This document shows, piece by piece, positions 14,525 through 52,127 of a stretch of DNA of 64,000 nucleotides. Each line of letters starts with the position of its first letter. Position 1 is the stretch's first letter. Both the position numbers and the translations under genes were made by a program. Source of the DNA: Gemmatimonadota bacterium (GTDB taxonomy: Bacteria; Gemmatimonadota; Gemmatimonadetes; Longimicrobiales; Gaopeijiaceae). Below the pieces are notes generated by a model. The model was not told where the DNA came from, searched no databases, and saw only the letters and a program-made list of their open reading frames with translations. Location: contig JAPPNO010000012.1 of NCBI GenBank assembly GCA_028873845.1, positions 1-64,000 of the forward strand, written 5' to 3'.

Positions 14525-14532
14525 AAGGATCT

Positions 14533-15039: not shown

Positions 15040-15051
15040 GAAAGACATCTC

Positions 15052-15234: not shown

Positions 15235-15271
15235 CCGTGCCGGCTCGCCACCGCGCATGCCAGTCCGCCAC

Positions 15272-19064: not shown

Positions 19065-19132
19065 CCGGTTGCGGCCACTGTCCGGGGTGCCTGCCCGACC
19101 GTGCCTACACAACCGCATGGAGAGAACAAGCC

Positions 19133-19372: not shown

Positions 19373-19480
19373 CGGACCGACCGACCCGGATCGGCGAATG
19401 AACCCCGGAGGGTTTCAGCCCGGCGACGCCCGGGACAATTCTCTCGGGGGTTCTTCACGGTTGGCGCGCTAGCAAGAGTC

Positions 19481-20743
19481 ATGGGCAACGGCGGACACGG
19501 GCGCAGAGTCGCGATCACCGGCATCGGGATGGTATCGCCGGTCGGCCTCGATGTGGAGTCGAGCTGGGAGGCGCTGCTGGCGGGAACGCCCGGTGGAGGC
19601 CCCATCACCGCCTTCGACCCCGAAGGCTACGCGACCCGGATCGCCTGCGAGATCGCAGGTTTCGATCCGTTGAACCATCTGTCCCGCAAGGAAGCCCGCC
19701 GCTACGACCGTTTCGCCCAGATCGGCGTCGCGGCCGCCTCCGAGGCGATGGAGTCGGCGGGACTCACGGGCCCGCCGCCGGGATGCCCCCCGACGGACTT
19801 CGGCGTGATCCTGGGTAGTGGCGTGGGGGGAATCATCACGCTGGAGGCCAACTGCAACATCATGAGGGACAGAGGGCCGGGCAGGGTGAGCCCCTTCTTC
19901 ATCCCCATGTTCATACCCGACATCATCGCCGGGCTCGTCTCGATCCGGTACGGACTCCGCGGACCCAACTACGCTACGGTGTCGGCGTGCGCCTCGGGCG
20001 CGCACGCGATCGGCGACGCCGCCCGGTACATCCGGCGAGGCGAGGCCACCATCATGCTGGCGGGAGGCTCGGAGGCGGCGGTAACCCCCATCTGCATTGC
20101 CGGATTCTCGGCCATGAAGGCCATGTCGCGGCGCAACGACGACCCCGCCGGAGCCAGCCGTCCCTTCGACGCGGGGCGCGACGGCTTCGTCATCGGCGAG
20201 GGCGCGGGCGTTCTGGTACTCGAAGAGATGGAGCACGCCCGGGCCCGGGACGCCGAGATCCTGGGGGAGCTGGCCGGTTTCGGCGCCACCGGCGACGCCT
20301 ACCACATCACGGCCCCTCCTCCCGAGGCGGAGGGCGCCCGGGAAGCCATGCAGGCGGCCGTCGAGGACGCCGGACTCGCACCCGGCGACATCGACTACAT
20401 CAATGCGCACGGCACCTCCACCCCGGCGAACGATCCGTCCGAGACCGCGGCCATCAAGTCCTTCCTCGGCCCCCGCGCCTACGAAATAGTGGTCGGATCC
20501 ACCAAGTCCATGACGGGACACCTTCTCGGCGCCGCCGGCGCGATCGAGACGGTCATGTGCGTGATGGCCTGCCGGACCGGCCGGATCCCGCCGACCATCA
20601 ACTTTCATGAGAGGGACGACGCCTGCGACCTCGATTACGCGCACGGCGGCATGGTCGAGCGACCGGTGTCGGCGGCGCTGTGCAACTCCTTCGGTTTTGG
20701 CGGGCACAACGCGTGCCTCGTGGTACGGAGATACGAGGAGTAG
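19481..20743 (+). CDS. fabF: 3-oxoacyl-ACP synthase II
   Basis: FabF elongates acyl-ACP chains with malonyl-ACP. The 420-residue protein has the nucleophile in VSACASGAHAIG, the two histidines in NAHGTSTPAND and KSMTGHLLGAAGA, and the FGFGGHNACLV ending. The N-terminus RVAITGIGMVSPVGLD confirms the start. The 108-base gap after acpP shows nothing else. Confidence 0.97.
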   Translation: MGNGGHGRRVAITGIGMVSPVGLDVESSWEALLAGTPGGGPITAFDPEGYATRIACEIAGFDPLNHLSRKEARRYDRFAQIGVAAASEAMESAGLTGPPPGCPPTDFGVILGSGVGGIITLEANCNIMRDRGPGRVSPFFIPMFIPDIIAGLVSIRYGLRGPNYATVSACASGAHAIGDAARYIRRGEATIMLAGGSEAAVTPICIAGFSAMKAMSRRNDDPAGASRPFDAGRDGFVIGEGAGVLVLEEMEHARARDAEILGELAGFGATGDAYHITAPPPEAEGAREAMQAAVEDAGLAPGDIDYINAHGTSTPANDPSETAAIKSFLGPRAYEIVVGSTKSMTGHLLGAAGAIETVMCVMACRTGRIPPTINFHERDDACDLDYAHGGMVERPVSAALCNSFGFGGHNACLVVRRYEE

Positions 20744-20749
20744 CAACCC

Positions 20750-21343
20750 GTGGAGGAAAACCACCCGGAATTCGAACGGGGTCTGTCGAGGGCTGCCGGC
20801 CCGGCCGCGGTTCGCGCGGGCACGGGCTACGATTCCCACCGCTTCGATCCCGCCCGTCCCCTGATCCTCGGCGGGGTGCACTTTCCCGACCACCCCGGGC
20901 TGAGCGGATTCTCGGACGGCGACGCGGTGGCGCACGCGGTGATCGATGCGCTCCTGGGCGCGACCGGCCTGGGTGACATCGGCACGCACTACCCCCCGGG
21001 CGACGAACGGTGGCGCGGGGCCGACTCCATGGGGCTTCTGTCACGGGTCGTGGCGATGCTGCACGCGGAGGACTGGCGCGTGGGCAACATCGACGTCACG
21101 GTCGTGTGCGAGTCCCCCAGGATCGGCCCGCGAGCCGCGGAGTTGCGCCGCCTTCTGGCCGAACGGATGGAGGTGGAGCCGGAGGCGGTATCGGTGAAGG
21201 GCAAGTCCAACGAGAAGATGGGGTGGATCGGACGCGGGGAGGGGATCGCGGTCCACGCGGTGGCCCTTGTCGCGCGCCACGCCGGGGGGACCGGTGACCG
21301 CTCCGTTCCGGGCGGGAAGGCCGCGGCCTCCACGGACCCATAG
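20750..21343 (+). CDS. ispF: 2-C-methyl-D-erythritol 2,4-cyclodiphosphate synthase
   Basis: IspF cyclises CDP-methylerythritol phosphate in the MEP isoprenoid pathway. The core (about residues 22-178) shows GTGYDSHRFDP with the metal ligands, SDGDAVAHAVIDALLGA, GDIGTHYPP and the C-terminal KGKSNEKMGWIGRGEGIA. It carries about 20 extra residues at each end compared with the usual 157. The start is GTG 7 bases after fabF. The partner IspD is not in the window. Confidence 0.95.
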   Translation: MEENHPEFERGLSRAAGPAAVRAGTGYDSHRFDPARPLILGGVHFPDHPGLSGFSDGDAVAHAVIDALLGATGLGDIGTHYPPGDERWRGADSMGLLSRVVAMLHAEDWRVGNIDVTVVCESPRIGPRAAELRRLLAERMEVEPEAVSVKGKSNEKMGWIGRGEGIAVHAVALVARHAGGTGDRSVPGGKAAASTDP

Positions 21344-21349
21344 GGAACC

Positions 21350-21958
21350 GTGGACCGGATACTGTCCTTCCTGAGCGAACTGCCGCCGCTCCTGCTCTAC
21401 CTGTTGCTGGGAGCGGGCGCGGCGGTCGAGAACGTGCTTCCGGTGGTGCCCGCGGACACGATCATCGTGACAGGCGGCTTCGTTGCCGGGCTGGGCGCGG
21501 GGAAAGTCACAGCCGTCTTCCTGAGCGTGTGGGGGTTCAATGTCGCGGGGGCCCTGGCGGTCTACGCCTTCGGACGCAGGTATGGGCCCGAGTTCTTCAC
21601 CACCGGGCGTGGCCGAAACCTGTTGGCCGAGAAGCAGATGCGACGTCTCGAGGCGTTCTATGCGCGCTGGGGTGTGGCCGCGATCTTCGTGGGGCGATTC
21701 CTGCCCGGATTCCGCGCGCTGGTGCCGGTCTTCGCGGGGGTGGCGGGGCTGGGGTGGGCCAGGGTCGTGCCGCCGCTGGCGGTGGCGTCCGCAATCTGGT
21801 ATGGCGCGCTGGTGCGCCTGGGGCATCTTTTCGGGAATAACGTGGATGCGGTGCGCGACGCCATGTCGAAGGCGAACCGCGGTCTCCTCGCGACGTCGGT
21901 GGTACTCGCCGTCGTCCTTGTGGCCGTGTGGTGGCGTGCCCGCCGCAGGACCGGTTAG
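21350..21958 (+). CDS. DedA family (SNARE-associated/VTT domain) membrane protein
   Basis: A 202-residue inner-membrane protein of the DedA superfamily, whose members flip or transport polyprenyl or phospholipid head groups. It has the motif ENVLPVVPADTIIV near residue 28 and the signature FVGRFLPGFRALVPVFAG (about residues 113-130), with four or more hydrophobic stretches. The start is GTG, 7 bases after ispF; the location beside isoprenoid synthesis fits undecaprenyl-phosphate recycling, by inference. Confidence 0.88.
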   Translation: MDRILSFLSELPPLLLYLLLGAGAAVENVLPVVPADTIIVTGGFVAGLGAGKVTAVFLSVWGFNVAGALAVYAFGRRYGPEFFTTGRGRNLLAEKQMRRLEAFYARWGVAAIFVGRFLPGFRALVPVFAGVAGLGWARVVPPLAVASAIWYGALVRLGHLFGNNVDAVRDAMSKANRGLLATSVVLAVVLVAVWWRARRRTG

Positions 21959-38645: not shown

Positions 38646-39677
38646 GTGGAGAAAACCCCCTCGACACACGAGACCGGCGGCGGCCTTCGCGCAGTGGCCC
38701 GCGACGAGCGCGCGCCGTGGTCCCCTCCCCGCGCCTACCGCGACTTCGCCCTCGTCGTGCCCGCGTACAACGAGGCGCCCAACATCCCCCATCTCATCCC
38801 CGAAGTGCGGGCCGCCTTCGAGGAGTTCGGACTGGCCGGCGAGGTCATCCTGGTGGACGACGGTTCGACCGACGGAACGGCCGAACTGGCGGAGTCGGAG
38901 GGCGACGGATGGGACCGCCTGCGGGTGCTGCGCCACCGGGTGAACCTGGGCAAGACCGAGGCGCTGCTCACGGCCGCCGGTGCGACCGACCGGCGGTACC
39001 TGGTGCTCTTCGACGCCGACCTTCAGCACCTTCCGGCCGAAATCCCCCGCTACCTGGACAAGCTCGAGGAAGGCTGGGACATCGTCACCGGGCGAAAGGT
39101 GGGGCGGTACGACAAGCGCGCGGTATCGTCGATCTACAACGCGCTCAGCCGCCGCATCTTCAAGGTGCCGGTCAGCGACCTCAACTCCATGAAGGCCTTC
39201 CGCGCCGACGTGCTGAAGGCGGTTCGGCTGCGCCATGACTGGCACCGCTTCTTCGTGGTGCTCGCGCACCGCAAGGGTTTCAGCGCCACCGAGATCGACA
39301 TCGAGCTGCACCCCCGCCGCGCGGGCGAGCCGAAGTACTCGGGGAAGAGCCGCATTGTCGGGGGCGTGCTCGATCTGATGGCGGTCTGGTTCCAGCTGCG
39401 CTTCTCCCGCAAGCCGATGGTCGCCTTCGGCCTGCCCGGGGTGTTCATGATGGCGGCGGGAGTGCTCACCGGGCTGGCGGCGCTCTATCTGCGGTTCGTG
39501 GTGGGGCAGGGGTTCCGGCCGCTCCTGTACCTGGTCGTGCTGCTGATCACGGTGGGGGTTCTCTGTTTTGCGGCGGGGATGCTCGGCGAGATGGTCGCGT
39601 CGGTTCATGACGAGCTGGACGCGATGCGGCGGGAGCGGGGGGACGGGGGACGGGGACGCGGGGCGGGGGAAGGGTAG
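38646..39677 (+). CDS. GT2 family polyprenyl-phosphate glycosyltransferase
   Basis: The 343-residue protein has a GT-A domain (VVPAYNEAPNIPHLIPE, LVDDGSTDGTAEL, DADLQHLPAEIP with the DxD-type motif) and two C-terminal transmembrane helices (about 255-320), the architecture of dolichol/undecaprenyl-phosphate sugar transferases. LNSMKAFRADVL and LHPRRAGEPKYSGKSR are typical. GTG start 7 bases after rpoN opens the glycan locus. The sugar transferred (glucose, mannose or a GlcNAc type) cannot be read from sequence. Confidence 0.85.
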   Translation: MEKTPSTHETGGGLRAVARDERAPWSPPRAYRDFALVVPAYNEAPNIPHLIPEVRAAFEEFGLAGEVILVDDGSTDGTAELAESEGDGWDRLRVLRHRVNLGKTEALLTAAGATDRRYLVLFDADLQHLPAEIPRYLDKLEEGWDIVTGRKVGRYDKRAVSSIYNALSRRIFKVPVSDLNSMKAFRADVLKAVRLRHDWHRFFVVLAHRKGFSATEIDIELHPRRAGEPKYSGKSRIVGGVLDLMAVWFQLRFSRKPMVAFGLPGVFMMAAGVLTGLAALYLRFVVGQGFRPLLYLVVLLITVGVLCFAAGMLGEMVASVHDELDAMRRERGDGGRGRGAGEG

Positions 39678-39678
39678 C

Positions 39679-40863
39679 TTGGCCCGCTCCGAAACGGCGG
39701 GCGCGGGAGGTGGCGCCTCACGCCGTCCCCGCATCCTCTCGGTCGTCGGCACCCGGCCGGAGGCCATCAAGATGGCGCCCGTCGTCGGTGCGCTGGCGGA
39801 CCGGGGCGGATGCGTCCACAGGCTCGCCCTGACCGGGCAGCATACGGACATGGTCGACCAGGTGCTGGACGTCTTCGGACTCGAGGCGGACTACGACCTC
39901 GACCTCATGAAGCCGGGCCAGACTCTCTACGACGTGGGACACGCCTGCATGGACGGCCTGCGCGGGGTGGCGGAGGATTTCGTCCCCGACGTGACCATCG
40001 TGCAGGGCGACACGGCCACGGTCTTCTTCGCGGGAGTGGTCGCCTTCTTCCAGCAGGGAATGCTGGCGCATGTGGAGGCGGGGCTGCGCAGCCGCCGCAA
40101 GTGGTCGCCCTTCCCGGAGGAGATGCTGCGCCGCATGACGGACACCCTCTCCGACTTCTGCTTCGCGCCCACCCGGGAAGCGGCGGACAACCTGGCCGCC
40201 GAGGGGGTCGCCGGGGAACGCATCTTCGTGACCGGCAACACGGTCGTGGACGCGCTCCACCGCATGCGGGCCCGGCCCGCTCCCCTGAGCAATCCCTGCG
40301 CCGCCGGGCTGGTCGCGTCGCGGCGGCGCCTTGTCCTCCTGACCGCCCACCGCCGCGAGTCGTTCGGCACCCCGCTGGAGCGCGCCTTCGGAGCCGTGGC
40401 CGCGCTGGCGGAGCGCTTCGAGGACATCGAGATCCTCTACCCGGTGCACCCGAATCCCCGCGTACTCGAACCCGCCCGCCGCATCCTGGGCGGCCGGCCC
40501 CGCGTCCACCTCACCGACCCCCTCGACTACGGCGACCTCGTGACCGTGCTGGGCCGCGCAAGCCTGGTTCTGACCGACTCCGGCGGCATCCAGGAGGAGG
40601 CGCCCGCCTTCGGGGTGCACACGCTCGTCCTGCGCGAGGTCACCGAGCGGCCGGAGGGGGTACGGGCGGGCGCGGCCACCCTGGTCGGCACCGACGCGGA
40701 CCTCATCCTCAACGAGGCCACCGCCCACCTGAACGGCGCCCGCGACGCCTGTCCGGCCGGAAACCCCTACGGCGACGGCCGCGCGGGGGCGCGCATCGCC
40801 GACATCCTGCTCGCGGAGCTCACCGGGACGCCCCGCCGGCTCGAAGACTGGAACGCACCGTGA
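39679..40863 (+). CDS. wecB: UDP-N-acetylglucosamine 2-epimerase (non-hydrolysing)
   Basis: WecB interconverts UDP-GlcNAc and UDP-ManNAc. The 394-residue protein has ILSVVGTRPEAIKMAPVV, TGQHTDMVDQVLD, VQGDTATVFFAG, HVEAGLRSRRKWSPFPEE, TAHRRESFG, YPVHPNP and LTDSGGIQEEAPAFG, all diagnostic. The start is TTG 39679 with GGAAGG ahead; no ATG or GTG gives a plausible N-terminus. It starts one base after the previous stop and overlaps the next gene in GTGA. UDP-ManNAc is a precursor of several surface polysaccharides. Confidence 0.94.
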   Translation: MARSETAGAGGGASRRPRILSVVGTRPEAIKMAPVVGALADRGGCVHRLALTGQHTDMVDQVLDVFGLEADYDLDLMKPGQTLYDVGHACMDGLRGVAEDFVPDVTIVQGDTATVFFAGVVAFFQQGMLAHVEAGLRSRRKWSPFPEEMLRRMTDTLSDFCFAPTREAADNLAAEGVAGERIFVTGNTVVDALHRMRARPAPLSNPCAAGLVASRRRLVLLTAHRRESFGTPLERAFGAVAALAERFEDIEILYPVHPNPRVLEPARRILGGRPRVHLTDPLDYGDLVTVLGRASLVLTDSGGIQEEAPAFGVHTLVLREVTERPEGVRAGAATLVGTDADLILNEATAHLNGARDACPAGNPYGDGRAGARIADILLAELTGTPRRLEDWNAP

Positions 40864-41969
40864 AGATCGTCGTCCACTGCGTGTACTTTCCTCCCGAGGT
40901 CGGGGGTCTGGAGAGCCACGTCCACTATCTCTGTCGCGGACTGGCGGCGCGCGGCCACGAAGTCACCGTCGTCACCTCACTGTCCCAGCCGGATCTGGCA
41001 CGGCATGAAGTGATGGACGGTATCCACATATACCGCACGCCTTTGCCTTCCCGCACGCCGCTCGGCTGGTCCATTCACGCGGCCGGCTCCACGCCGCGCA
41101 CCCGCGCAGTCGTCGCGGGGGCCGACATCGTTCACGCCCAGGCCTTCCCCTCGCTGCTGCCCTGCGCACTGGCGCTGGCGGGGATGAGCACGCCGCTGGT
41201 GTGTACCATACACACTTCGCATTTCCTGCGCCTGGCCGCCAATCCCGTCGTCGCCCCGGCACTTGGCAAACTGATTGAACTGAGTGATTACAACTTCGCT
41301 GCCAGCAAGGAGATAGCAGATGTGGGCGAGAGTCTCGGGCCGACCATCTCGGTCGAAACGCTCGTCAACGGCGTCGACACCGGGATCTTCAGGCCGGTCG
41401 ATGGCGCCATTCCGCGTGCCGATGGCCGCCGGCGACTCGTGGTGCCGCGAAGGCTCTTCCCGAAGAACGGCGTGGAGTACTTCGTGCGGGCGTTGCCGCT
41501 GATCGTGGCCGGGGCTGACGTGGACGTGATCGTCATCGGGGACGGGCCGGAGAGGGAGCGGATGGAAGGGCTGGCGGCCGAGCTCGGGGTGGCGGACCGG
41601 ATCGAGTTCCTGGGCGCGCGGCCCCACGCCGAGATGCCGGGGCTGCTCTGTTCGGGGGACATGGCGGTGTTTCCGTCGCTCGTGGAGGCCACATCGGTGG
41701 CTGCGCTGGAGTGCATGGCGTGCGGACTACCGGTGGCGGCGTCGGCGGTGGGGGGGCTGCCCCAGATCGTGAACGACTCGGTGGGAGGGCTGTTTCCGGC
41801 GGGGGATCCGGAAGGGCTTGCGGGCAAGGTGCTGGAGTTGCTCGGGGACGAGGGGCTGGGGGGGCGGGGGACGGTGGGGCGGGGGACGGTGGTGGCGAAG
41901 TGGAGCAACGAGCGGCTGGTGGACCGGCATGAGGAGGTGTATGGGGGGTTGCTGGGGGGGATGGGATGA
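40860..41969 (+). CDS. GT4 family glycosyltransferase
   Basis: A 369-residue retaining glycosyltransferase with GT-B fold: N-terminal Rossmann domain (VYFPPEVGGLESHVHYLCRGLAARGHEV) and the C-terminal nucleotide-sugar domain (VPRRLFPKNGVEYFVRALP, IGDGPERERME, VFPSLVEATSVAALECMACGLPVAAS with the EX7E motif). Acceptor and donor unknown. Near the C-terminus a 15-base unit is repeated in tandem (about 41862-41892), giving GRGTVGRGTV. The middle (41200-41320) is more AT-rich than the rest. Confidence 0.9.
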   Translation: MKIVVHCVYFPPEVGGLESHVHYLCRGLAARGHEVTVVTSLSQPDLARHEVMDGIHIYRTPLPSRTPLGWSIHAAGSTPRTRAVVAGADIVHAQAFPSLLPCALALAGMSTPLVCTIHTSHFLRLAANPVVAPALGKLIELSDYNFAASKEIADVGESLGPTISVETLVNGVDTGIFRPVDGAIPRADGRRRLVVPRRLFPKNGVEYFVRALPLIVAGADVDVIVIGDGPERERMEGLAAELGVADRIEFLGARPHAEMPGLLCSGDMAVFPSLVEATSVAALECMACGLPVAASAVGGLPQIVNDSVGGLFPAGDPEGLAGKVLELLGDEGLGGRGTVGRGTVVAKWSNERLVDRHEEVYGGLLGGMG

Positions 41970-42793
41970 AGAAGACGACAGCACCCTGGACGGGCCGCAG
42001 GGCAGGGGGCGGCAGCGGCATTGCACAGATGGCCGCGCGCCTGAGGAACGCGCTCGTGAAGATTGCCCGGAATCCGGTCACGGCCTGGAGAATGCTCTGG
42101 CCGCGCTACGGGCCCTTCGCCGCCAAGGCTCCCGACACCGAGTTTCGCCGCGCGATCCGCTGGTCGTTCGGGGACCTCGGGAGGGAGCCCCTCAACGCGG
42201 TCTTCCCGGGTATCGAACACATCGACGTGCGCGTCGTCCGCTGCTACGACCGGGAACCGCTCCTGTCGATGACCCCGTCCGAGGTGCTGGCCATTGGGGC
42301 GATGGTGCGTTTCCTCCGGCCCGAGCGGATTCTCGAGATCGGCACCTTCGAAGGGAACACGACGGTCAACCTGGCCGCCAACGCCCCCGCTTCAGCCCGC
42401 GTCTTCACGCTCGATCTGCCGCCCGACTGGGCCCGGCGCTACGCGCTGGACGTTCCCGACATCCACTACAACGCCGCCACCGGAAACCATACGGGGAGGC
42501 AGTTCATCGAAACGCCGCATGCGGACAGGATCACCCAGCTGTGGGGGGATTCCGCCGCGTTCGAGTGGGACGAGCACGGTCCCTTCGACTTCATCCTGAT
42601 CGATGGCTGCCACACCTACGAGTACGCGGTTTCCGATACCCTGAACGCGCTGCGGGTCATCCGGCCCGGAGGGGCGATCGTGTGGCACGACTACGGGATG
42701 CTGGAAGACGTCAGCCGGGCGGTCGACGAGTGTGCACGGGGCATCAAGGCCCGGGCGATTCAGGGGACCCGGCTGGCGGTGGGGTTTCCGTAA
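41966..42793 (+). CDS. Class I SAM-dependent methyltransferase
   Basis: This 275-residue protein has methyltransferase motif I (RILEIGTFEGNTTVNLA, about residues 119-135), an acidic motif II region (LDLPPDW), and FDFILIDGCHTYEYAVSDTLNALRVIRPGGAIVWHDYG typical of the Methyltransf_24 type found in glycan loci. The N-terminal 100 residues are helical and unassigned. It overlaps the GT4 gene by 4 bases and converges on the acyltransferase gene with a 50-base tail-to-tail overlap. Confidence 0.85.
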   Translation: MKKTTAPWTGRRAGGGSGIAQMAARLRNALVKIARNPVTAWRMLWPRYGPFAAKAPDTEFRRAIRWSFGDLGREPLNAVFPGIEHIDVRVVRCYDREPLLSMTPSEVLAIGAMVRFLRPERILEIGTFEGNTTVNLAANAPASARVFTLDLPPDWARRYALDVPDIHYNAATGNHTGRQFIETPHADRITQLWGDSAAFEWDEHGPFDFILIDGCHTYEYAVSDTLNALRVIRPGGAIVWHDYGMLEDVSRAVDECARGIKARAIQGTRLAVGFP

Positions 42794-43238
42794 CCGCCGG
42801 TCCCTCGTCCGCCTCCGCATGCGGACGTATCATCATCACGCGCCCCGGCACGCCCAGTACGACGGCGTAGGGCGGCACGTCCGCGATGACCAGGGTATTG
42901 GCTCCCACCGTCGCCATGCGCCCTATCCGCACGCCCGGCACGATCGTCGCCTTGACCCCGATATAGGCGTCGTCCTCGATCACGACCTCGGCCGTCTTGC
43001 GGATTCCGTAGGCCTCCTCCAGGCGGGAGTGGACGGCGGTGACCTCGCCGAGGATCGAGACCGCGTTGCAGATCGTGACCCTCGACCCGACCACCACCAT
43101 GTCGGGCCGCGTCACCTGGACGTTGCGGTCGATGGTCACCCTGGATCCGATCCGCATCCCGCTCAACCGGTACAGGGAAGGGCGCATTCCCTGCGGGAAC
43201 GGCAGCATCGAGGCGAGATAGCGAATGATCCTGCCCAT
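42744..43238 (-). CDS. Hexapeptide-repeat (left-handed beta-helix) acyltransferase
   Basis: The 164-residue protein is a WbbJ-type O- or N-acyltransferase: it has the short helical lead (LPFPQGMRPSLYRLSGMRIG), hexapeptide repeats (IEDDAYIGVKATIVPGVRIGRMATVGANTLV) and the closing DVPPYAVVLGVPGR. The catalytic histidine may be the one in VTAVHSRLEE. It is the last gene of the minus-strand cassette, sharing its start base with the deacetylase stop. In context it could transfer an acyl group from CoA or from the dedicated carrier protein to a sugar. Confidence 0.85.
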   Translation of the reverse strand: MGRIIRYLASMLPFPQGMRPSLYRLSGMRIGSRVTIDRNVQVTRPDMVVVGSRVTICNAVSILGEVTAVHSRLEEAYGIRKTAEVVIEDDAYIGVKATIVPGVRIGRMATVGANTLVIADVPPYAVVLGVPGRVMMIRPHAEADEGPAVTETPPPAGSPESPGP

Positions 43239-44146
43239 CAGACCGTCCTCTCCTTCCAGCGTCGCAGGTATTCCTCGACGGTGACCACGTCGTAGTCGCC
43301 CGCCACCTCTGATAGTATCGCGGCGAGTGGCCGTAGGTGAACGCCCTCGACGTAGGGGTGGCCGTACATGAGGGCAAAGGGGCGGGCCCTGATCCGGTCG
43401 AGGGCGTCCCGCACGATGTGCTCGTCGGATTGGCCGCGGGCGAGTCCCTGCTCGATGACGGGCGTCCGGCGCTCCCCGATCACGTTGACGGGTACCTGGA
43501 AGTGGGAATGGCGGGACGCGCCATCGGAGCGATCAGGTCGGAAGGGGATCTCCCCGGCCATGTCCGAGCCGTACTCGAAGCCCTCCGCGTCGAGGAGATC
43601 GAGGACACCCGCGTTGTATCGGAATCCCGGGCTCGCGAACCCCCGGGGCCGCCCGTAGCGATCGCGAAAACTCCTGAACGCCGGGCGAAAGAGCCGCTCG
43701 AGTCCGTCATCTCCAAGCCGGTCGAGGGAGTACTGCCATGCCGGATGGTCGGAGCCTCCGTGGAGCCCCAGTTCGTGGCCCTCCCGGTGCAGCAGGTCCA
43801 TCGTGGAGCGAAATCTGCGTCCCAGACGCGGATTGAACAGCGCCGTCCTCAACGTGCCGCCCCAGCCCAGCTTTCGCCTGGCCGACAGCTTGTACGGCGC
43901 CGGCGCATCCGCCGAATCCGCTCCGCGCCCATGGTTCCGCCTTCGCCGCAGCACGTTGACCGTCGTGTGCCGCCAACTGAAGCTCCGCCCCATGTTCACG
44001 AAGAAGGTGAAGCGAACGCCGTGACGGTCGCCGAGTCGCAACAGGTTGGGGACTCCCTGCTCGAGGCAGATGAGCGAATCGACGTCGAGACGGAACGCGA
44101 ACGTACGACGCCGGCGTGGAGACAAGTCGCGCTCTCCGGCCGTCAC
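43238..44146 (-). CDS. Polysaccharide deacetylase family protein
   Basis: The 302-residue product fits the NodB-homology/ArnD-like branch of carbohydrate esterase 4: FAFRLDVDSLICLEQGVPNLLRL (metal Asp), VRFTFFVNMGRSF, GHELGLHGGSDHPAWQ (HxxxxH-type ligands), FASPGFRYNAG and LMYGHPYVEG. An insert of about 40 residues after the second motif is rich in Arg. GTG start. It follows the carrier protein by 4 bases, and may free an amino sugar so the next enzyme can re-acylate it. Confidence 0.82.
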   Translation of the reverse strand: MTAGERDLSPRRRRTFAFRLDVDSLICLEQGVPNLLRLGDRHGVRFTFFVNMGRSFSWRHTTVNVLRRRRNHGRGADSADAPAPYKLSARRKLGWGGTLRTALFNPRLGRRFRSTMDLLHREGHELGLHGGSDHPAWQYSLDRLGDDGLERLFRPAFRSFRDRYGRPRGFASPGFRYNAGVLDLLDAEGFEYGSDMAGEIPFRPDRSDGASRHSHFQVPVNVIGERRTPVIEQGLARGQSDEHIVRDALDRIRARPFALMYGHPYVEGVHLRPLAAILSEVAGDYDVVTVEEYLRRWKERTV

Positions 44147-44150
44147 CCGT

Positions 44151-44387
44151 TCACCGGCGGCCCTCGACCAGCTTCACCATGCCCCCGAAGGAACGCACCG
44201 CGGTCGCCTCCTCGGGGGTCATCATGAACCGGAATTCCTGCTCGACGGCGAGGATCAGGTTCAGATGAGCGATGGAATCCCACCCGCCGTGGGAGTCCAT
44301 GGACAGCGTCGTGACCTCCGTCTCCGGCCTCACTTTGAGCACGCTCCGGAAGATGCGCTCCAGCGTCTGCGACGTGTCCCCGGTCAT
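44151..44387 (-). CDS. Dedicated acyl carrier protein
   Basis: A 78-residue carrier protein distinct from AcpP at 19133. The phosphopantetheine serine lies in GGWDSIAHLNLILAVEQEF (about residue 37), with W-D-S replacing the usual A-D-S of AcpP, as in carrier proteins that serve small specialised acyl groups. It overlaps the FkbH-like gene stop in ATGA, which strongly implies the two work together. Confidence 0.92.
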   Translation of the reverse strand: MTGDTSQTLERIFRSVLKVRPETEVTTLSMDSHGGWDSIAHLNLILAVEQEFRFMMTPEEATAVRSFGGMVKLVEGRR

Positions 44388-46297
44388 TGCAACGATCCCT
44401 TTCGCGATACCCTGAACAGCTCCGGACCGACCCCGTGGCCGGGACCGCCGCGGCAGTCACCCCTGTGGGGCGAGTTGGTGCCGGGAGGAGGGGAGCAGGG
44501 AGAGACCTCGAACCGGAGCACTTCGTCGGACTGTTCGGTCAGTTTGAATCCGTGCCCGGGAAGGAACTCCCGGCTCATTCCATTCTTCGCCGTGGGCCTG
44601 TAGCAGGCCCGTACCGCGCGGGCGCCCGCTGCGTGGGCATCGTCCAGAACGGTTCTGAGCAACTCGCCCTCGATCCCCCGGCCGAAGGCCCGGCAGCTCA
44701 ACATGAAGGAGTCGATCTCCCAGCTTTCGCCCACCGTGTCCGCCACGATGGCCACGCCCACGATCCCGTAGTCGGAGAAGCGGTCCTCCATGCTCATGGT
44801 GTACACGACACCGCCGTCCATGAGGCCTTCGATGTCGCCCGGGCTGTAGCGTCTGGTGGTCAGATTGAATTGATTGGTGCGTTGCGTGAGCTGGCTCACG
44901 CGCGGGATCGCGGCACGGTTCTGCCGTTCGATCACCAGCCTGATTTCAAGGCTCCGGACAAAGGCCTCCGGATCCGGCGCACCGCGCTGGAGGCGTTGCC
45001 GCCTGGCGTTCGCGCGCAGCGACTCCGCCCTTTTCAGATCCTCGACCTCGACACGCAGGCGCTGCGTGCCCCTCATGCCGCTGATGAACCCGGGAATCTC
45101 CGCGGGATTGGACGGAAACCGTTCCACCAGGACTTCGGGAAACGCCGACCGTATCCTGGCGCACTCGACCGGACTGTCATCCACGAAGATCATCGAATCG
45201 AGGCCGATGTTCATCTCCTCCGCGAGCTCGGCCAGGTTCGCCCCCTTGTCCTTCCAGTTGATGCGGTGTGCCGTGAAGTCACCGGGACGCAGGACCATAT
45301 CCGGTGACTCGGCCAGGAAGGACAGCGCGTCGGCCTCGTCGTTCTTGCTGTTGATTGCCAGGAGGAACCCCCTGCGTCCGAGCCCGGCCAGGAACTGCTG
45401 GAACTCCCGGTACGCCTCGCCGGGATAGTCCGTGCCGATCGCGACGCGTTCCGGCCCATCCTCGCCCAGCACCCCGCCCCAAAGGGTGTTGTCGCAGTCC
45501 ACGACCACGCACTTTCGGGGCGGGACGGCGGCAACGGCCGCGATGTCCGCGAATGCCCGCCCCAGGTGCGGCAGGAAGTCCACGGCGAAAGGGCTTCGGG
45601 CCATCAGGTACATGCGCGGGTCGAAGGCGCGCCCGGCCCCGTACTCCGCGACGATCCGGTCGAGATCCAGAATCGCCACGCGGGGTCCGGTGTGGAAACC
45701 GTCGAGTAGCGCGGTGTTGACGCGCCGTCGCAGCTGGGGCCAGCTGCCGGGATTCTGGTCCGCATGCAGCTGGTGAAACCGGATCGGGTCCGGCGCCAGG
45801 TTGGCAACCACTATCGTCGCGCCGGTGCCTTCCAGCAGCCCGGCCACGATCGCGTCCACGCGGGCCACGATCGAATCCGCGATGTCCGGCGGAGGCTCGT
45901 GGCGGGCGTCACCCACCAGGGCGGCGGGTTCGAAGTAGAGGAGGAAGATGTCCGGCGGCGGTTCGCCCAGCTCCGCGGGAGAGGCGGCGTAGCGCTCGTA
46001 GACCCCGAAGTCGCCCACGTTGAAGTCCGCCTTGATCCCCTCGTTGAGCAGAGCCGCGTACATCTCCGGCAGCCACGGCTCCACGGTCGCGTTCCGGAGC
46101 ACACCGACGGTCAGATCGCGAAGGCCCTCGACCGAGTCCGGGGCCTGCCGGCCAATCCCGAACAGCTCATTCGCCTTCGCGTGGGACGGTGCGGCGGCCA
46201 GCTCAGCGGCTGCCCGGCGAAGCAACTCGCCCCACTCGGCGGAGGATGACGGGCGGCCGCCCGGACGCGGCTCCGAGGACCCGCTCACGTCAGCCAT
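44384..46297 (-). CDS. FkbH-like HAD-IIIC protein with C-terminal acyltransferase-like domain
   Basis: FkbH enzymes take 1,3-bisphosphoglycerate, remove phosphate and load a glyceryl group on an ACP. This 637-residue protein has an SGNH-like N-terminal half, the HAD-IIIC signature CVVVDCDNTLWGGVLGEDG (DCDNT at 267-271), INSKNDEADAL, IFVDDSPVECARI, and a C-terminal GNAT-like part (QLTQRTNQFNLTTRRY, FSDYGIVGVAIV, SCRAFGRGIEGELL). The last 35 residues are low complexity. The family also contains members of unproven substrate, so glyceryl loading is an expectation. It overlaps the MaoC gene by 8 bases and the carrier protein by 4. Confidence 0.9.
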   Translation of the reverse strand: MADVSGSSEPRPGGRPSSSAEWGELLRRAAAELAAAPSHAKANELFGIGRQAPDSVEGLRDLTVGVLRNATVEPWLPEMYAALLNEGIKADFNVGDFGVYERYAASPAELGEPPPDIFLLYFEPAALVGDARHEPPPDIADSIVARVDAIVAGLLEGTGATIVVANLAPDPIRFHQLHADQNPGSWPQLRRRVNTALLDGFHTGPRVAILDLDRIVAEYGAGRAFDPRMYLMARSPFAVDFLPHLGRAFADIAAVAAVPPRKCVVVDCDNTLWGGVLGEDGPERVAIGTDYPGEAYREFQQFLAGLGRRGFLLAINSKNDEADALSFLAESPDMVLRPGDFTAHRINWKDKGANLAELAEEMNIGLDSMIFVDDSPVECARIRSAFPEVLVERFPSNPAEIPGFISGMRGTQRLRVEVEDLKRAESLRANARRQRLQRGAPDPEAFVRSLEIRLVIERQNRAAIPRVSQLTQRTNQFNLTTRRYSPGDIEGLMDGGVVYTMSMEDRFSDYGIVGVAIVADTVGESWEIDSFMLSCRAFGRGIEGELLRTVLDDAHAAGARAVRACYRPTAKNGMSREFLPGHGFKLTEQSDEVLRFEVSPCSPPPGTNSPHRGDCRGGPGHGVGPELFRVSRKGSLQ

Positions 46298-46733
46298 CCT
46301 CGTTTGCGAGCGCGGCTTCGGCCGGCACATGCGGAATCTTCACCGTCGCCGATCCCTGCATCGCGGTGACGAGATCGTGCTCGCGCCGCGCGGTGAACTC
46401 GAGCAGCACCACGCCCGCGGCTTCCGACCGGTGCGCCACGACCGTCTCGAAAAGGACCGATTCCCCGACGGAAACGGGAGCCGTGAAGTCGAAGTGGTAC
46501 GATACGCACACGGCCCCCGGGCCCGGCAGGTGAACACCGATGATGCGGCTGACCTCGGCAAGCAGCAGACCCGCATAGGCCATCTGTTCCGGATGGCCGA
46601 AGTCCCGTGCCGACTGCCGGTCCATGTGGATGGGATTCGTGTCGCCCGACAGAGCGGTAAAGGCCGCCATTCGGTCCGGTGTCACCGTAATCCGGGATCG
46701 ATGGGTGTGGGACGGCTCCCGACCGGCGTTCAT
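46290..46733 (-). CDS. MaoC-like hotdog-fold dehydratase
   Basis: A 147-residue single-hotdog protein with the (R)-specific enoyl hydratase signature FTALSGDTNPIHMDRQSARDFGHPEQMAYAGLLLAEV, including catalytic Asp and His. Such enzymes interconvert enoyl and 3-hydroxyacyl thioesters. Here it is encoded directly before the FkbH-like gene and carrier protein, so its substrate is probably an ACP thioester made for the glycan. A thioesterase function is the main alternative. Confidence 0.85.
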   Translation of the reverse strand: MNAGREPSHTHRSRITVTPDRMAAFTALSGDTNPIHMDRQSARDFGHPEQMAYAGLLLAEVSRIIGVHLPGPGAVCVSYHFDFTAPVSVGESVLFETVVAHRSEAAGVVLLEFTARREHDLVTAMQGSATVKIPHVPAEAALANEDG

Positions 46734-46828: not shown

Positions 46829-47686
46829 TCAGCATTCCGCCGCCGGATCCGCGGAGCGGCCTCCACTCAGGCAGCAGACGGTCAGGAGCGGCGGCCACGG
46901 CACTAGACGGCGGTTGGCCAGGGATGACTTGAGGCGGTGGAGCAACGGCGGGCCTCTCCACGGAAGAAGGCGGGGGTCGACCGCCCGGGTGGTCAGGATG
47001 TCGGGATTCGACAGCTGCCGCTTCACCGTTCGGCCGTGGTCCGGACCCTCGTCGAAGACGGTCTCCAGCGCCTTCAACAAGCGGTCGAGATCCTCCATGC
47101 GCATGTCTCGCGTGCCGTCCAGGCCGACATCGAAGGTGATCGCCATCCCGGCCCCGTTCGAGACCCTCGAAAACTCGTTCAGGATGTCCTCGTAGCTGTC
47201 GGTGTGCTCGAGCACGGAAACGCAATAGATCAGGTCGAACGACCGGTCGCGGTACGGCAGCTCCCTGATGTCCGCGGCGGAGAACTCGACATCGCCCTTC
47301 ATGTTGCCGTTGAGCGAGGCGAAGACATCCGTCAGGGTGTCGTCGGTATCGCAACAGGCGACCGTCGTTCCCTCGAAGCAGCGCCGGAGATAGAAGGGCA
47401 TGAAGGTCGCGCCCGAGCCCGCATCCAGGATCCGGGCCCGGGGGCGTGCTCGAACGACTTCGGCCACCTTGCCGAACACGTAGGGGTACTCCCATTGCCG
47501 ACTCCACGAGTGGAGGGGGTTGTCCGCTCCCCATTTCGCGTTGTAGCCCGCGAGGACGCCGCGATTCATCTCCAGGAAATCCGTGGAAAAGGTGTCCATT
47601 TCACGGAAGGCCGCCGATTGCAGCACGGCGTCGCACTCGTCCTTGCGGGGAACTCCATCTCGAAGCTGGAGGGAGGCGGGCGGCAT
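46829..47686 (-). CDS. SAM-dependent methyltransferase (Methyltransf_11 type)
   Basis: The 285-residue protein has motif I RILDAGSGATFMPFYLRR (about residues 85-102), DTDD for ribose binding, AADIRELPYRDRSFDLIYCVSVLEHT and a long C-terminal part. It heads the minus-strand cassette. The ATG at 47686 follows AAGGAACC and is preferred to an upstream start. Substrate unknown; a sugar or lipid-linked intermediate is likely from context. The C-terminal 40 residues, after DILTTRAVD, are atypical. Confidence 0.85.
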   Translation of the reverse strand: MPPASLQLRDGVPRKDECDAVLQSAAFREMDTFSTDFLEMNRGVLAGYNAKWGADNPLHSWSRQWEYPYVFGKVAEVVRARPRARILDAGSGATFMPFYLRRCFEGTTVACCDTDDTLTDVFASLNGNMKGDVEFSAADIRELPYRDRSFDLIYCVSVLEHTDSYEDILNEFSRVSNGAGMAITFDVGLDGTRDMRMEDLDRLLKALETVFDEGPDHGRTVKRQLSNPDILTTRAVDPRLLPWRGPPLLHRLKSSLANRRLVPWPPLLTVCCLSGGRSADPAAEC

Positions 47687-47783
47687 CGGGTTGGTTCCTT
47701 GAGGGGGCGTGCACGCCAGGGACAACAGTGGCGTGGCGAAGGTATGCGGCCGGGAGGGGCACTCACAAGGGACCCATGCAACC

Positions 47784-47810: not shown

Positions 47811-47890
47811 GTCAGGACTTGCCCCTGCCGTCCGCGCAACGCCCCGGCCTGCCCGCCCATCCACCCTCCCGGACACGGAGTTCACGCCCC

Positions 47891-50335
47891 ATGGCCACCA
47901 GCGACCGGAACCCCGTCCCGATCCAGTGGTGGCTTCCGGGCGCGCTGTTCGTGCTGGCCACCGTTGTCCTCTTCGGCGGATTCATCTTCTCCGACCGGAT
48001 GCTCTACGGCGAGGACATCCTCGCCCTCGGCTACATGGGACGGGACTTCTTCGCCGAACGGCTGTCGGCGGGCGACTTTCCACTGTGGGCCCCGCGTCTG
48101 CTGGGAGGCGTGCCGACGCTCGAGTCCATTTCGGCGGCGGACGGGGTGTACCCGACGAGCCTTCTCTACTTCGTCATGGACAGTTACCGCGCGGTCGGTT
48201 GGAGGATGGTCCTGCACGTGCTCGCGGCCGGTTTCTTCATGTACGGCTGGGCGCGCAGCCTGGGGCTGAGCCGCGCGGCCGCCACGGTCGGCGGGCTGGG
48301 CTGGCTGATGGCCCCGGTCATGGTCACCCTGGTGCTGCCCGGCAACGACGGGAAGCTCATGGTGGCCGCGCTGACCCCGCTGGTCTTCTGGGCCGCCGAG
48401 GCGGTGCTCCGAGCGCCGTCGGGCCGCACGATCGCGGGTATGGCCGGCGCGGTCGCGGTGGTCTGCCTGGTCACCCAGTTCCAGACCGCGTACTTCCTTT
48501 TCGGCTCTGCGGGCGCGTACGCCCTCTTCCGCGGGGTGCAGATGTGGCGTGCGGGCGACACCGCGAGCAGGGCGGCGGGTGCCCGGCGGGCCCTGCTGCC
48601 CTTCGGGGTCTTCCTGGGTGCGTCGCTCCTGGGAGGGGGGATCGCCGCGTTCCAGGTCCTGCCCGCCGGTACCTACGTCGGCGAGTCCTCGCGGCGCACC
48701 GCGACCACGGTGGACGCGACTCCCGAGGCGAAGATCGCCTACTCCAGTTCCTGGTCCTTCCACCCGGAAGAGGCGGTTTCGCTGGTCGTTCCGGAGTTCG
48801 TCGGCAACAGCGCCGCCGACGCCGAGTGGGCTCGTGGCACGTACTGGGGACGCAACTCGATCAAGCTGAACCACGAGTATCTTGGGGTTTCGGTCGTGGT
48901 TCTGGCGCTCTTCGGGCTGCTGGGACGGCGGAGAAGGGGACTGAGGTGGTTCATGGCCGCGGTGAGCGGCGTCTGGCTTCTCTACGCGCTCGGCACCCAC
49001 ACGCCCGTATGGCGGATCTTCTACGAGATCGTACCCGGGATGAGCCTCTTTCGGGTCCCGGCGATCTGCATGTTCCTGGTGAGTTTCGGGGTGACCACCC
49101 TGTTCGCGATGGGCGTGGACGACCTGGTGCGGGAAGCGCCGGGGCGCGAACCGTTCCTGCGGACGCGGCGAGGGCGGGTGCTGCTCGGTTTTGCGGGACT
49201 GCTCCTGCTGGGGGCGCTGCTTCAGGCCTCGGGTGCGCTGACGGACATCTGGACGAACACGCTGTACGCCGACGCGGGGCAGCGCCAGCTGGCGGCCCTC
49301 GCCGTGGCCACCCCCTTCATCACGCGCGGCTTCGGCATCGCGCTGCTGATCGCGGGGCTCGCCGTCGCGGGGATCTGGGCGGCGCAATACCGCAAGATCC
49401 CCTTCACGGCCGCGCTGGCGGGCCTGGCGGCGCTGGTCGCCGTCGATCTCGGCCGGGTCGATCGGGCCTTCATCCGCACCCTGGACTTTCACGAGTGGGC
49501 GGCCCCGGACGAGAACATCCGCTACCTGCAGGCCCGCCGCGACGAGGGCCAGCCGTTCAGGGTCGCGGACATGCGCGGCAGCGAGCAGAACGTCGACCTG
49601 GCCATGCACGGACTCGACATCATGGTCGGGCACCACCCCAACGACCTGGCGCGGTACAGGTCGCTGCTGGGACTCCAGGCCAGCGTGCGGCAGGGCGACA
49701 ACACCCGCAATCCCACCTTGCTCAGGATGATGAACGTGAAGTACCTGGCCTGGCCGCTCCAGGCCGCGGGAGGTCCCCCCTGGGAGGGGGCGCAGGCCGC
49801 GAGCACCGCGCGGACATCGCGGGGCGTGGAGGCGGTGTACGCCTATCCCGGTCTGGACAAGGCGTGGCTGGCGGGTACGGCCACGGTGCTGGACGACGAA
49901 GCCGCGCTGGCGAGGATCCTGTCCGGCGCATTCGATCCGGCGCGCGAGGTGGTGCTGGCCGAACCCGCGTCGCTGGCGCCGGATCCATCCGTCACCGGCA
50001 CCGTCGCCTGGGCACTCGGCGATCCTGACGAGCGCCGCCTGCGCGTCACCACGACCGGGCCGGCGTTCCTGGTCGTGTCCGAGAACTGGTTCCCTGGCTG
50101 GGTGGCCGAGGTGGACGGTGAGCCAGCCGAGGTGCGCCGGGCGAACCTCACGCTCCAGGTCGTGGAGATCCCGTCGGCGGGCGAGCACACGGTCACGCTC
50201 CGGTACACGGCGCCGACGGTGAAGAGCGCGCTCCGGCTCAGCGTCGTCGCGTCGTTGATCACGATCCTTCTGTTCGGGCTGTCGTTCGTGCGCGGGCTGC
50301 CTGTGTGGCTGCCGCTCGGGCGACGGTCGCAGTGA
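47891..50335 (+). CDS. YfhO-family multi-pass membrane protein
   Basis: An 814-residue inner-membrane protein of the YfhO/GT-C-like superfamily, whose Gram-positive members add sugars to cell-envelope polymers from undecaprenyl-phosphate donors. It has about 12 predicted membrane helices in the first 560 residues, an acidic first periplasmic loop (DRMLYGEDILALGYMGRDFF), and a C-terminal soluble domain with the characteristic VVSENWFPGWVAEVDGEPAEV. ATG 47891 was chosen; a TTG at 47819 could extend it. It overlaps the next gene in GTGA. Confidence 0.85.
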   Translation: MATSDRNPVPIQWWLPGALFVLATVVLFGGFIFSDRMLYGEDILALGYMGRDFFAERLSAGDFPLWAPRLLGGVPTLESISAADGVYPTSLLYFVMDSYRAVGWRMVLHVLAAGFFMYGWARSLGLSRAAATVGGLGWLMAPVMVTLVLPGNDGKLMVAALTPLVFWAAEAVLRAPSGRTIAGMAGAVAVVCLVTQFQTAYFLFGSAGAYALFRGVQMWRAGDTASRAAGARRALLPFGVFLGASLLGGGIAAFQVLPAGTYVGESSRRTATTVDATPEAKIAYSSSWSFHPEEAVSLVVPEFVGNSAADAEWARGTYWGRNSIKLNHEYLGVSVVVLALFGLLGRRRRGLRWFMAAVSGVWLLYALGTHTPVWRIFYEIVPGMSLFRVPAICMFLVSFGVTTLFAMGVDDLVREAPGREPFLRTRRGRVLLGFAGLLLLGALLQASGALTDIWTNTLYADAGQRQLAALAVATPFITRGFGIALLIAGLAVAGIWAAQYRKIPFTAALAGLAALVAVDLGRVDRAFIRTLDFHEWAAPDENIRYLQARRDEGQPFRVADMRGSEQNVDLAMHGLDIMVGHHPNDLARYRSLLGLQASVRQGDNTRNPTLLRMMNVKYLAWPLQAAGGPPWEGAQAASTARTSRGVEAVYAYPGLDKAWLAGTATVLDDEAALARILSGAFDPAREVVLAEPASLAPDPSVTGTVAWALGDPDERRLRVTTTGPAFLVVSENWFPGWVAEVDGEPAEVRRANLTLQVVEIPSAGEHTVTLRYTAPTVKSALRLSVVASLITILLFGLSFVRGLPVWLPLGRRSQ

Positions 50336-51402
50336 GCGGTCGCGAGGTGGTGGGGGAGGGGGGGAAGGGGGACCGGGCCGCGCGGAAGCGGTGGTGGGTG
50401 CTGCCGGTCAAGCTGCTGCTCACCGTGGGCGTTACGTGGCTGATTCTGCGGGGTGCCGGGATCAGGCTGGGCGAGGTGGGGACGGTGGACTGGGCGCTGG
50501 TGCGGCTGGATGTGCCGTACCTGGTTCTCTCCGTGGCGCTGCTCTTCGTGACGTTCGGCATCGCGGCCGTGCTGTGGTCGCGGAACCTGGTGGAGTTCGG
50601 GGAGCGCAGGGTGGGCGTGGTCGAGGGGGCGTCGATCCTCCTGATCGCGAACCTGGGCCGGTACGTGCCCGGGAAGATCCTTGCGCTCGCGGGGGTGGCC
50701 GTGCTGGCGCGCCGCAGGGGAATGTCGGGCGTGCGGGCGACCGGGGCGGCGGTGACGGCGCAGATGGTCAACCTGCTGGGGGCGGCGGTGGTGGGGGTGT
50801 GGGTGGCGGTGTGGTCGGCGGGTCTCTCCGAGGCGTGGAAGATTGCGGTGGGCGTGGCGATCGTCGCCGGGCTGGCCGGGTTTCTGTACTTCGGCGGGGC
50901 AGGGACCCTGCTCCGGTGGGTCCTGCGCCGAAGCGGCCACGCCGGGGAGCTGCCGAACACCAGTGGCCGCAACCTGCTGCGGCTGCTTCCCGGCTACATC
51001 GTCAACTGGGTCGTCCATGGCGCCGCCTTCGTCTGCCTGAGTCGAGGCATCGGCCTGGACATCGGTTTCGGGGTCGGGACGACGGCGTTTGCGGCCGCAT
51101 ACTTCATGGGGTACGTGGTCATGTTCGCGCCGGGGGGGATCGGCATCCGGGAGTCCGGCCTGGCCCTGTTCCTGACCCCGATCCTCGGAATGGAGGCAGC
51201 CGCGCTGGCCCTTGCCGTTCTCCAGCGGGTCTGGATCACCGCCGTGGAGCTGGTAGGGGCCGTGGTGGGTGCTGTCGTGCTGCGCCGGCCTGCGGTGCCC
51301 TCGCCTGCCGACGCCGGGACGGGGATCGCCGAACCGGCCACAATCTCTTCCCCCCAATCCGAAACCGACGCCGCCGAACTCGCCACCGAGGGCCCCGCAT
51401 GA
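50332..51402 (+). CDS. Flippase-like membrane protein (LPG synthase TM/UPF0104 domain)
   Basis: This 356-residue protein has about eight hydrophobic segments and the family motifs NLGRYVPGKILALAGVAVLARRRGMS and APGGIGIRESGLALFLTPILG, matching the lysylphosphatidylglycerol synthase transmembrane region without the aminoacyl-transfer domain. Such stand-alone proteins accompany glycosyltransferases and may flip lipid-linked sugars. The C-terminal 40 residues are a soluble, Pro/Ala-rich tail. Coupled at both ends by 4-base overlaps. Confidence 0.85.
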   Translation: MSGREVVGEGGKGDRAARKRWWVLPVKLLLTVGVTWLILRGAGIRLGEVGTVDWALVRLDVPYLVLSVALLFVTFGIAAVLWSRNLVEFGERRVGVVEGASILLIANLGRYVPGKILALAGVAVLARRRGMSGVRATGAAVTAQMVNLLGAAVVGVWVAVWSAGLSEAWKIAVGVAIVAGLAGFLYFGGAGTLLRWVLRRSGHAGELPNTSGRNLLRLLPGYIVNWVVHGAAFVCLSRGIGLDIGFGVGTTAFAAAYFMGYVVMFAPGGIGIRESGLALFLTPILGMEAAALALAVLQRVWITAVELVGAVVGAVVLRRPAVPSPADAGTGIAEPATISSPQSETDAAELATEGPA

Positions 51403-52127
51403 GCCCCCAACAGCGCGTCCTGGTGATCGTCCCCACCTACAACGAACGCGACAACCTGCCGCGTGTCGTCCCGCTCATCCTTGGCCAGGGCGATGCCTTC
51501 CACGTCCTGGTCGTGGACGACAACTCCCCCGACGGGACCGGGGACGTCGCCGACGCGATGGCCGCGCACGATGAGCGGGTCAATGTCCTCCACCGGCCGG
51601 GAAAGCAGGGCCTGGGCGCAGCCTACGTGGCCGGGTTCGGGTGGGGACTTCAGCGCGGCTTCGACGTCCTCATCGAGATGGACGCGGATCTGTCCCACCC
51701 CGCCGACCGCCTGCCGGCGCTGGTCGCGGCCCTCGAGGATGTGGACGTCGCGGTGGGATCCCGGTACGTCGGGGGCAACATCACGGTGGTCAACTGGCCG
51801 CTCCGGAGGCTGATGATCAGCCTCTTCGGCTCGTGGTACGCCCGCATGATCACGCGGCTTCCCGTCAACGACGCCACCGGCGGCTTCAACGCCTTCCGCC
51901 GGGGGGTTCTGGAAACGGTCGGGCTCGAGAAGATCCAGTCGAACGGGTACAGCTTCCAGATCGAACTCAAGCTGCGGGCCTGGCGGGCGGGATTCGCGCT
52001 GTGCGAGGTCCCGATCGTCTTCACCGAGCGCGACAGCGGCGAATCGAAGATGTCCGGCAGGATCATCCGCGAGGCCGTGTGGCGCGTGTGGAAGCTGCGC
52101 CTGCTCGACCTGCTGGGGAAGTTGTAG
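51399..52127 (+). CDS. Polyprenol-phosphate mannose synthase-like glycosyltransferase
   Basis: The 242-residue GT2 protein closely resembles Dpm1/Ppm1: VIVPTYNERDNLPRVVPLIL, VVDDNSPDGTGDVAD, EMDADLSHPADRLPALV with the DAD metal motif, VGSRYVGGN, VNDATGGFNAFRR and FTERDSGESKMSGRIIREAVWRVW. It lacks membrane helices, unlike the one at 38646. It likely provides the polyprenyl-phosphate sugar used by the YfhO protein two genes upstream. Confidence 0.9.
   Translation: MSPQQRVLVIVPTYNERDNLPRVVPLILGQGDAFHVLVVDDNSPDGTGDVADAMAAHDERVNVLHRPGKQGLGAAYVAGFGWGLQRGFDVLIEMDADLSHPADRLPALVAALEDVDVAVGSRYVGGNITVVNWPLRRLMISLFGSWYARMITRLPVNDATGGFNAFRRGVLETVGLEKIQSNGYSFQIELKLRAWRAGFALCEVPIVFTERDSGESKMSGRIIREAVWRVWKLRLLDLLGKL

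Follow-up and report, generated by a model that had tools for sequence, protein, structure and literature searches.

An FkbH, carrier protein, deacetylase and acyltransferase cassette in a surface-glycan block of Gemmatimonadota as a candidate acyl-exchange module

Why would an FkbH-like enzyme, of a kind familiar from antibiotic pathways, be encoded together with a private acyl carrier protein (ACP) and a sugar deacetylase amid genes for surface-glycan synthesis? This question is raised by contig JAPPNO010000012.1 from a Gemmatimonadota metagenome-assembled genome (GCA_028873845.1; 4.05 Mb in 137 contigs), whose first 64,000 nucleotides are the window analyzed here. Five intact genes, all on the minus strand, run from position 46733 down to 42744 and encode a MaoC protein, an FkbH-like protein, an ACP, a CE4-type deacetylase and a hexapeptide acyltransferase, in that order. 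An initial annotation had read them as a sugar-acylation pathway, in which FkbH loads the ACP, the MaoC protein carries out hotdog chemistry, and a sugar is deacetylated and then re-acylated. That logic largely holds for the module formed by FkbH, ACP, deacetylase and acyltransferase, but not for the MaoC step. In our reading, to which we assign a probability of about 0.5, the cassette serves as an accessory module for acyl exchange, mounted on a conserved surface glycosylation block of the three-component type.

The core of the cassette is a set of four genes, namely those for FkbH, the ACP, the deacetylase and the hexapeptide acyltransferase, which constitute one conserved module within the surface-glycan block. 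Their order and strand are kept in 11 loci of the genus (one genome, G005, has two such loci), and thus the cluster is not a product of chance. Of 23 congeneric genomes, 10 have both FkbH and the deacetylase and 13 have neither; because these genomes are kin, the contrast of 10/10 with 13/13 does not represent 23 independent events. Close homologues of the hexapeptide transferase (79-100% identity) are, within the genus, likewise confined to those 10 genomes. When mapped on a tree of the neighboring YfhO protein, the cassette state changes at least two to three times, with several open forks that would suit gain as well as loss; G021, which has no cassette but retains the adjacent methyltransferase MT11, looks like a case of loss. 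The association also extends to two other genera. In G060, FkbH, ACP and deacetylase genes are consecutive, with genes for a hexapeptide transferase and a Methyltransf_24 protein alongside, on a contig of 6.8 kb that ends short of the glycosylation block. In G072, the ACP, deacetylase and hexapeptide genes are together, and that for FkbH is nearby in the opposite orientation. The initial annotation had named a lack of joint conservation as grounds for refutation; co-occurrence, synteny and the comparison of gene order in other genomes show instead that the four core genes are conserved together.

The fifth gene, maoC (46290-46733; PF01575, 53.7 bits), encodes a predicted (R)-enoyl hydratase/dehydratase of the hotdog fold. 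Upon alignment with the (R)-hydratase 1iq6, its D-x4-H pair is D31/H36, which is invariant in 8 sequences. In 5 of 13 cassettes, however, the gene has decayed or is missing. What remains of it is about 19 N-terminal residues in G007, a copy with its middle lost and a frameshift in G003, and one with an internal deletion in G005:C306; these remnants (L027, ~9560-9620; L028, 10973-11210; L036, ~500-600) each lie ahead of an open fkbH. No MaoC was found at the G072 and G060 cassettes. Since deletions have cut the gene in three cassettes of the genus and it is missing from the two further genera with the module, MaoC cannot be obligatory, and we reject it as a core step. The reading frames of FkbH, the ACP and the hexapeptide transferase are open in the MaoC-decayed loci. 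MaoC is, that is, an optional, accessory step.

The FkbH gene (44384-46297) matches TIGR01686 with 285.6 bits, over a curated cut-off of 146.65, as well as PF21211, and its product, a predicted HAD-type phosphatase and acyl-ACP loading enzyme, carries an N-terminal extension. Relatives favor the start at 46297, while the open reading frame (ORF) runs up to an upstream ATG at 46330. The HAD DxD aspartates D278 and D280, within the DCDNTLW motif, and C546 of SCRAFGR in the C-terminal half (numbered from the 46330 start) are invariant in 13 relatives, as is S38 in the WDS motif of the ACP (44151-44387; PF00550, 18.6 bits, slightly under the gathering score). Other small ACPs of this genome lie elsewhere, and because one of them sits beside a ketosynthase (19154-20239), the ACP of the cassette looks dedicated. 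In polyketide pathways, FkbH enzymes are understood to place glyceryl groups on ACPs (PMC7489565); by this analogy, the acyl group on the cassette ACP is most likely glyceryl. No methoxymalonyl dehydrogenases are seen among the annotated neighbors of the cassette, in agreement with the initial annotation, and on that ground we reject a methoxymalonyl-type pathway. It is conceivable, nonetheless, that the product of FkbH, ACP and MaoC is a hydroxyacyl or extender unit used in polyketide synthesis, with the glycan neighbors being coincidental. FkbH and ACP are indeed known from polyketide clusters, and a type I polyketide synthase (PKS) ORF that could use such a unit exists in the same genome, outside the window (G000:C89, ~8600-21900; 3462 codons, two ketosynthases). 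No ketosynthase is near the cassette, however, and in three genera FkbH accompanies the deacetylase and the hexapeptide transferase, the set adjoining glycan genes in two of these; we regard this explanation as very improbable. Elsewhere, an ACP is encoded next to a long FkbH protein near an MBOAT gene on S. meliloti pSymB (L151, 6520-8692), and beside MBOAT and another acyltransferase on a Rhodobacteraceae plasmid (L152, 6509-12296); pairs of FkbH and ACP with acyltransferases thus seem to recur.

To which known enzymes is the deacetylase (43238-44146) related? Its match to PF01522 (16.3 bits) is below cut-off, and its sole sequence match in the PDB is ArnD from Salmonella (8t0j). ArnD is also top-ranked in a Foldseek search with the AlphaFold model of the deacetylase, whose predicted local distance difference test (pLDDT) score is 86; in VIA-align the two structures superpose with a Z-score of 26.5 and a root mean square deviation of 2.5 over 239 residues, with the next row four Z units lower. 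The metal-site and catalytic residues D21, D23, H129, H134 and H263 are shared with the ArnD of an Arn-like operon from the same phylum (L139), which comprises genes for a DegT aminotransferase, an ArnC-like GT2, a formyltransferase, an epimerase/dehydratase and the ArnD-like protein. ArnD is the best NCBIfam model as well, but the score of 65.8 bits is far under the curated cut-off of 382, and therefore the cassette protein is, by sequence and fold, a relative of ArnD and not ArnD itself; the L139 protein, with 241 bits, is also under this cut-off. The score, together with the lack of ArnA, ArnB and ArnT among the neighbors, excludes a strict ArnD assignment. In a search of plasmids, an ArnD from Pantoea was the sole match to the deacetylase, and the matches to FkbH sit in other contexts.

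The cassette is embedded in a block whose order, in the fetched loci of the genus, is lptB-rpoN-ArnC-like GT2-wecB-GT4-[cassette]-YfhO-LPG_synthase_TM-Dpm1-like GT2. In the window, the glycosyltransferase, wecB and LPG_synthase_TM genes of the block are on the plus strand. The first GT2 (38646-39677) has ArnC structures as its best PDB matches, over residues 33-327, i.e., nearly its full length, and ArnC as its best NCBIfam model, below cut-off; it is an ArnC relative and a candidate polyprenyl-phosphate glycosyltransferase. It is followed by WecB, a UDP-GlcNAc (uridine diphosphate N-acetylglucosamine) 2-epimerase (39568-40863, true start uncertain; TIGR00236, 401.8 bits, cut-off 210), and by the GT4 glycosyltransferase (40860-41969; PF13692, PF00534). 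Beyond the cassette are YfhO (47819-50335), a putative membrane glycosyltransferase of the GT-C type whose Pfam match is barely above threshold (PF09586, 29.7 versus 28.5 bits); the LPG_synthase_TM membrane protein, a possible flippase (50305-51402; PF03706); and the second, Dpm1-like GT2 (51399-52127; PF00535; best NCBIfam model PpgS, below cut-off). The YfhO model is of low confidence (pLDDT 58.6), and its best Foldseek folds, the GT-C enzymes AftD and OST, are a fold hint at most. Where the cassette is absent, GT4 adjoins YfhO or lies within about 1 kb of it, with a methyltransferase filling the gap in G021 and G006. YfhO is present in all 23 congeners, and a related block occurs also in another family (G151). 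In G072 the block consists of a GT2, wecB, GT4 and a second GT2, without YfhO; because YfhO and LPG_synthase_TM there accompany the cassette, about 70 kb away, the cassette appears to be tied more closely to YfhO than to GT4. When the neighboring genes were scanned for a GtrA or Wzx flippase, only the PF03706 membrane protein turned up, and the same genes included no DegT aminotransferase and no ArnA, with YfhO in place of ArnT. Taken together, the ArnC-like GT2, the YfhO-type enzyme and the flippase-like protein, along with the ArnD-like deacetylase, suggest that the substrate is a sugar linked to polyprenyl phosphate. The surface-glycan setting claimed in the initial annotation is supported, though the relatedness of the deacetylase to ArnD and the hint of a polyprenyl-phosphate carrier in the neighboring genes had been overlooked.

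The remaining enzyme of the core, the hexapeptide acyltransferase (42744-43238; PF00132, 32.3 bits), has a predicted left-handed beta-helix fold and shows the highest conservation among the four proteins, with a mean column identity of 77% across 13 loci. Its best single-sequence match in the PDB is 3mqg, an acetyltransferase of lipopolysaccharide biosynthesis, which we take to be the WlbB N-acetyltransferase.

We propose that these components would act as follows. A polyprenyl-phosphate-linked N-acetylhexosamine, i.e., GlcNAc or else N-acetylmannosamine supplied via WecB, would be made by the ArnC-like GT2, and its N-acetyl group would be removed by the ArnD-like deacetylase on the cytoplasmic side. 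FkbH would draw phosphoglyceryl from 1,3-bisphosphoglycerate, dephosphorylate it and load the private ACP, from which the hexapeptide transferase would move the acyl group onto the free amine. The lipid-linked sugar would then be flipped, and the YfhO-type GT-C enzyme would pass the sugar to a surface glycan or glycolipid. Optional tailoring might be contributed by the methyltransferases and, where present, by MaoC, which, speculatively, could convert glyceryl-ACP by dehydration into pyruvyl-ACP in its enol form.

A variant of this arrangement is found in G126 and G130, of the same family but another genus, in which the slot between wecB and GT4 houses the gene of a deacetylase homologue (33-35% identity), which overlaps one for a formyltransferase (L100, 2604-4267; L101, 6691-8375). 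The pairing of a deacetylase with a different acyl-donor enzyme fits a module whose job is to change an N-acyl group. We tentatively suggest that this is a plug-in module acting on a polyprenyl-phosphate amino sugar, in which ArnD-type deacetylation is followed by addition of a glycolysis-derived acyl group, via FkbH and the private ACP, in one genus or of a formyl group, via a formyltransferase, in another, so that the same glycosylation machinery would yield differently N-acylated surface sugars.

Several observations weigh against the proposed acyl exchange on a lipid-linked amino sugar. The deacetylase scores far below the ArnD cut-off, as noted, and one extra residue separates its two metal-site histidines; the gene is also frameshifted in G022 (L031, ~12205) and internally deleted in G005:C306 (L036, 2741-3367), possibly through assembly errors or as pseudogenes. 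The deacetylase-formyltransferase pair of G126 and G130 could, moreover, carry out formylation followed by deformylation, as in the Arn pathway; no aminotransferase was seen beside this pair. Profile matches of the hexapeptide transferase are mixed, with no clear N- or O-specificity. Many hexapeptide transferases are in fact O-acetyltransferases, and FkbH-ACP pairs elsewhere adjoin MBOAT-type genes; both facts would suit a pathway in which the acyl group goes to a hydroxyl, with the deacetylase serving a separate end, e.g., the exposure of a cationic amine of the sort seen in lipid A modification of the polymyxin type. We consider O-acylation improbable, in view of the fact that the deacetylase and the hexapeptide transferase are kept or lost together within the genus, and that the sister-genus slot pairs the deacetylase homologue with a formyltransferase. 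In addition, His70 of the hexapeptide transferase, which aligns with the histidine of galactoside O-acetyltransferase, is replaced by Asn or Ser in four relatives; because it is not conserved, an amine acceptor is weakly favored.

A last point against our reading is that in six f4/f7 loci a deacetylase homologue lies between GT4 and wecB, without FkbH, and with no ArnC or YfhO found adjoining. This position makes the GT4 product a possible substrate; that is, the deacetylase and acyltransferase could act on a glycolipid or small glycoside, by the logic of MshA/MshB or BshA/BshB, with FkbH and ACP still providing the acyl group. The best NCBIfam models for the GT4 proteins, below cut-off, are BshA or MshA, and in G126 and G130 too the deacetylase homologue is found between wecB and GT4. 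However, the G072 cassette is with YfhO and a flippase-like gene, at a distance from GT4 and wecB, and the substrate of ArnD, to which the deacetylase is closest, is polyprenyl-phosphate-linked. We thus see action on the GT4 product as unlikely, albeit as the most serious competitor to acyl exchange on a polyprenyl-phosphate-linked sugar.

The proposed pathway can be compared with several known systems. NaxD, Lgm and Flm are, like the Arn pathway (ArnC, ArnD, ArnT), lipid-linked amino-sugar systems. The cassette locus resembles these in having an ArnC-like GT2 and an ArnD-like amidase near a putative GT-C enzyme, and in that the key step proposed for it is to deacylate an amino sugar linked to a carrier. 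It differs from the Arn pathway in that it lacks an aminotransferase and ArnA, includes WecB and GT4, and has YfhO rather than ArnT; the amine, moreover, would receive its new acyl group from a private ACP. In lipid A biosynthesis, LpxC and LpxD likewise effect deacetylation and then ACP-dependent N-acylation. So do NodB and NodA in Nod factor synthesis, where NodA uses an ACP-bound acyl group along with NodE/NodF (PMC5080398). In those systems the donors are fatty acyl groups, whereas the cassette is proposed to use a short hydroxy acid loaded by FkbH and an ArnD-type deacetylase; its acyltransferase is of the hexapeptide type, not of the NodA family. In the CsbB-GtcA-YfhO type of multi-component transmembrane glycosylation, a polyprenyl-phosphate GT2 is combined with a YfhO GT-C enzyme, and YfhO transfers C55-P-linked GlcNAc in Bacillus and Staphylococcus (PMC8035078); the ArnC-like GT2 and the putative GT-C protein YfhO of the block may be their counterparts. 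Here, by contrast, the host belongs to the Gemmatimonadota, lptB adjoins the block, the flippase-like protein is of PF03706 and not GtrA, and the acyl-exchange module is added. FkbH glyceryl-ACP systems of tetronate and methoxymalonyl pathways share the FkbH catalytic domain and the standalone ACP (PMC7489565), but the cassette has the N-terminal extension and no adjoining FabH-like enzyme, dehydrogenases or PKS, and its acyl group is proposed to serve a sugar acyltransferase. The tetronate-acylated perosamine of Vibrio cholerae O1 is also a surface amino sugar N-acylated by a short hydroxy acid via dedicated genes (PMC3441752). It forms an O-antigen polymer. The perosamine amine comes from an aminotransferase and not from a deacetylase.

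The kinds of enzyme are therefore known, but their combination appears new: in the open-access literature searched, we found no FkbH-loaded carrier that decorates a surface sugar, and no papers linking FkbH-like proteins with lipopolysaccharide. If the proposal is correct, one pathway would combine glycolysis and a private ACP with lipid-linked sugar chemistry of the Arn type. The loci without cassette, with the formyl variant and with the FkbH variant would then be a natural series for examining the effect that a change of N-acyl group in a surface glycan has on recognition.

The two S-adenosylmethionine-dependent methyltransferases that flank the cassette differ in how closely they follow it. 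The Methyltransf_24 protein (41966-42793, plus strand; PF13578) is linked to the cassette, with a close homologue in 9 of the 10 cassette genomes and none in the 13 others, while MT11 (46829-47725, minus strand; PF08241), retained in G021, is only loosely linked. In the loci L030 (10524-12230) and L031 (4559-6172), the LPG_synthase_TM protein is fused to a methyltransferase domain. With regard to gene packing, the overlaps of 4-8 bases reported in the initial annotation are correct for two of the four junctions, namely MaoC/FkbH (8 bases, given the FkbH start at 46297) and FkbH/ACP (4 bases); the ACP and deacetylase genes are instead separated by a 4-base gap, and the deacetylase and hexapeptide genes overlap by 1 base. 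A PHROGs search gave no match, and a scan of genome contigs returned only three very close loci, all from Gemmatimonadota, the nearest named relatives being the Gemmatimonadota RHO bins. Lastly, leucine-rich-repeat proteins adjoin the cassette in three loci (L028, 4912-5874; L030, 19011-19781; L031, 12883-13644).

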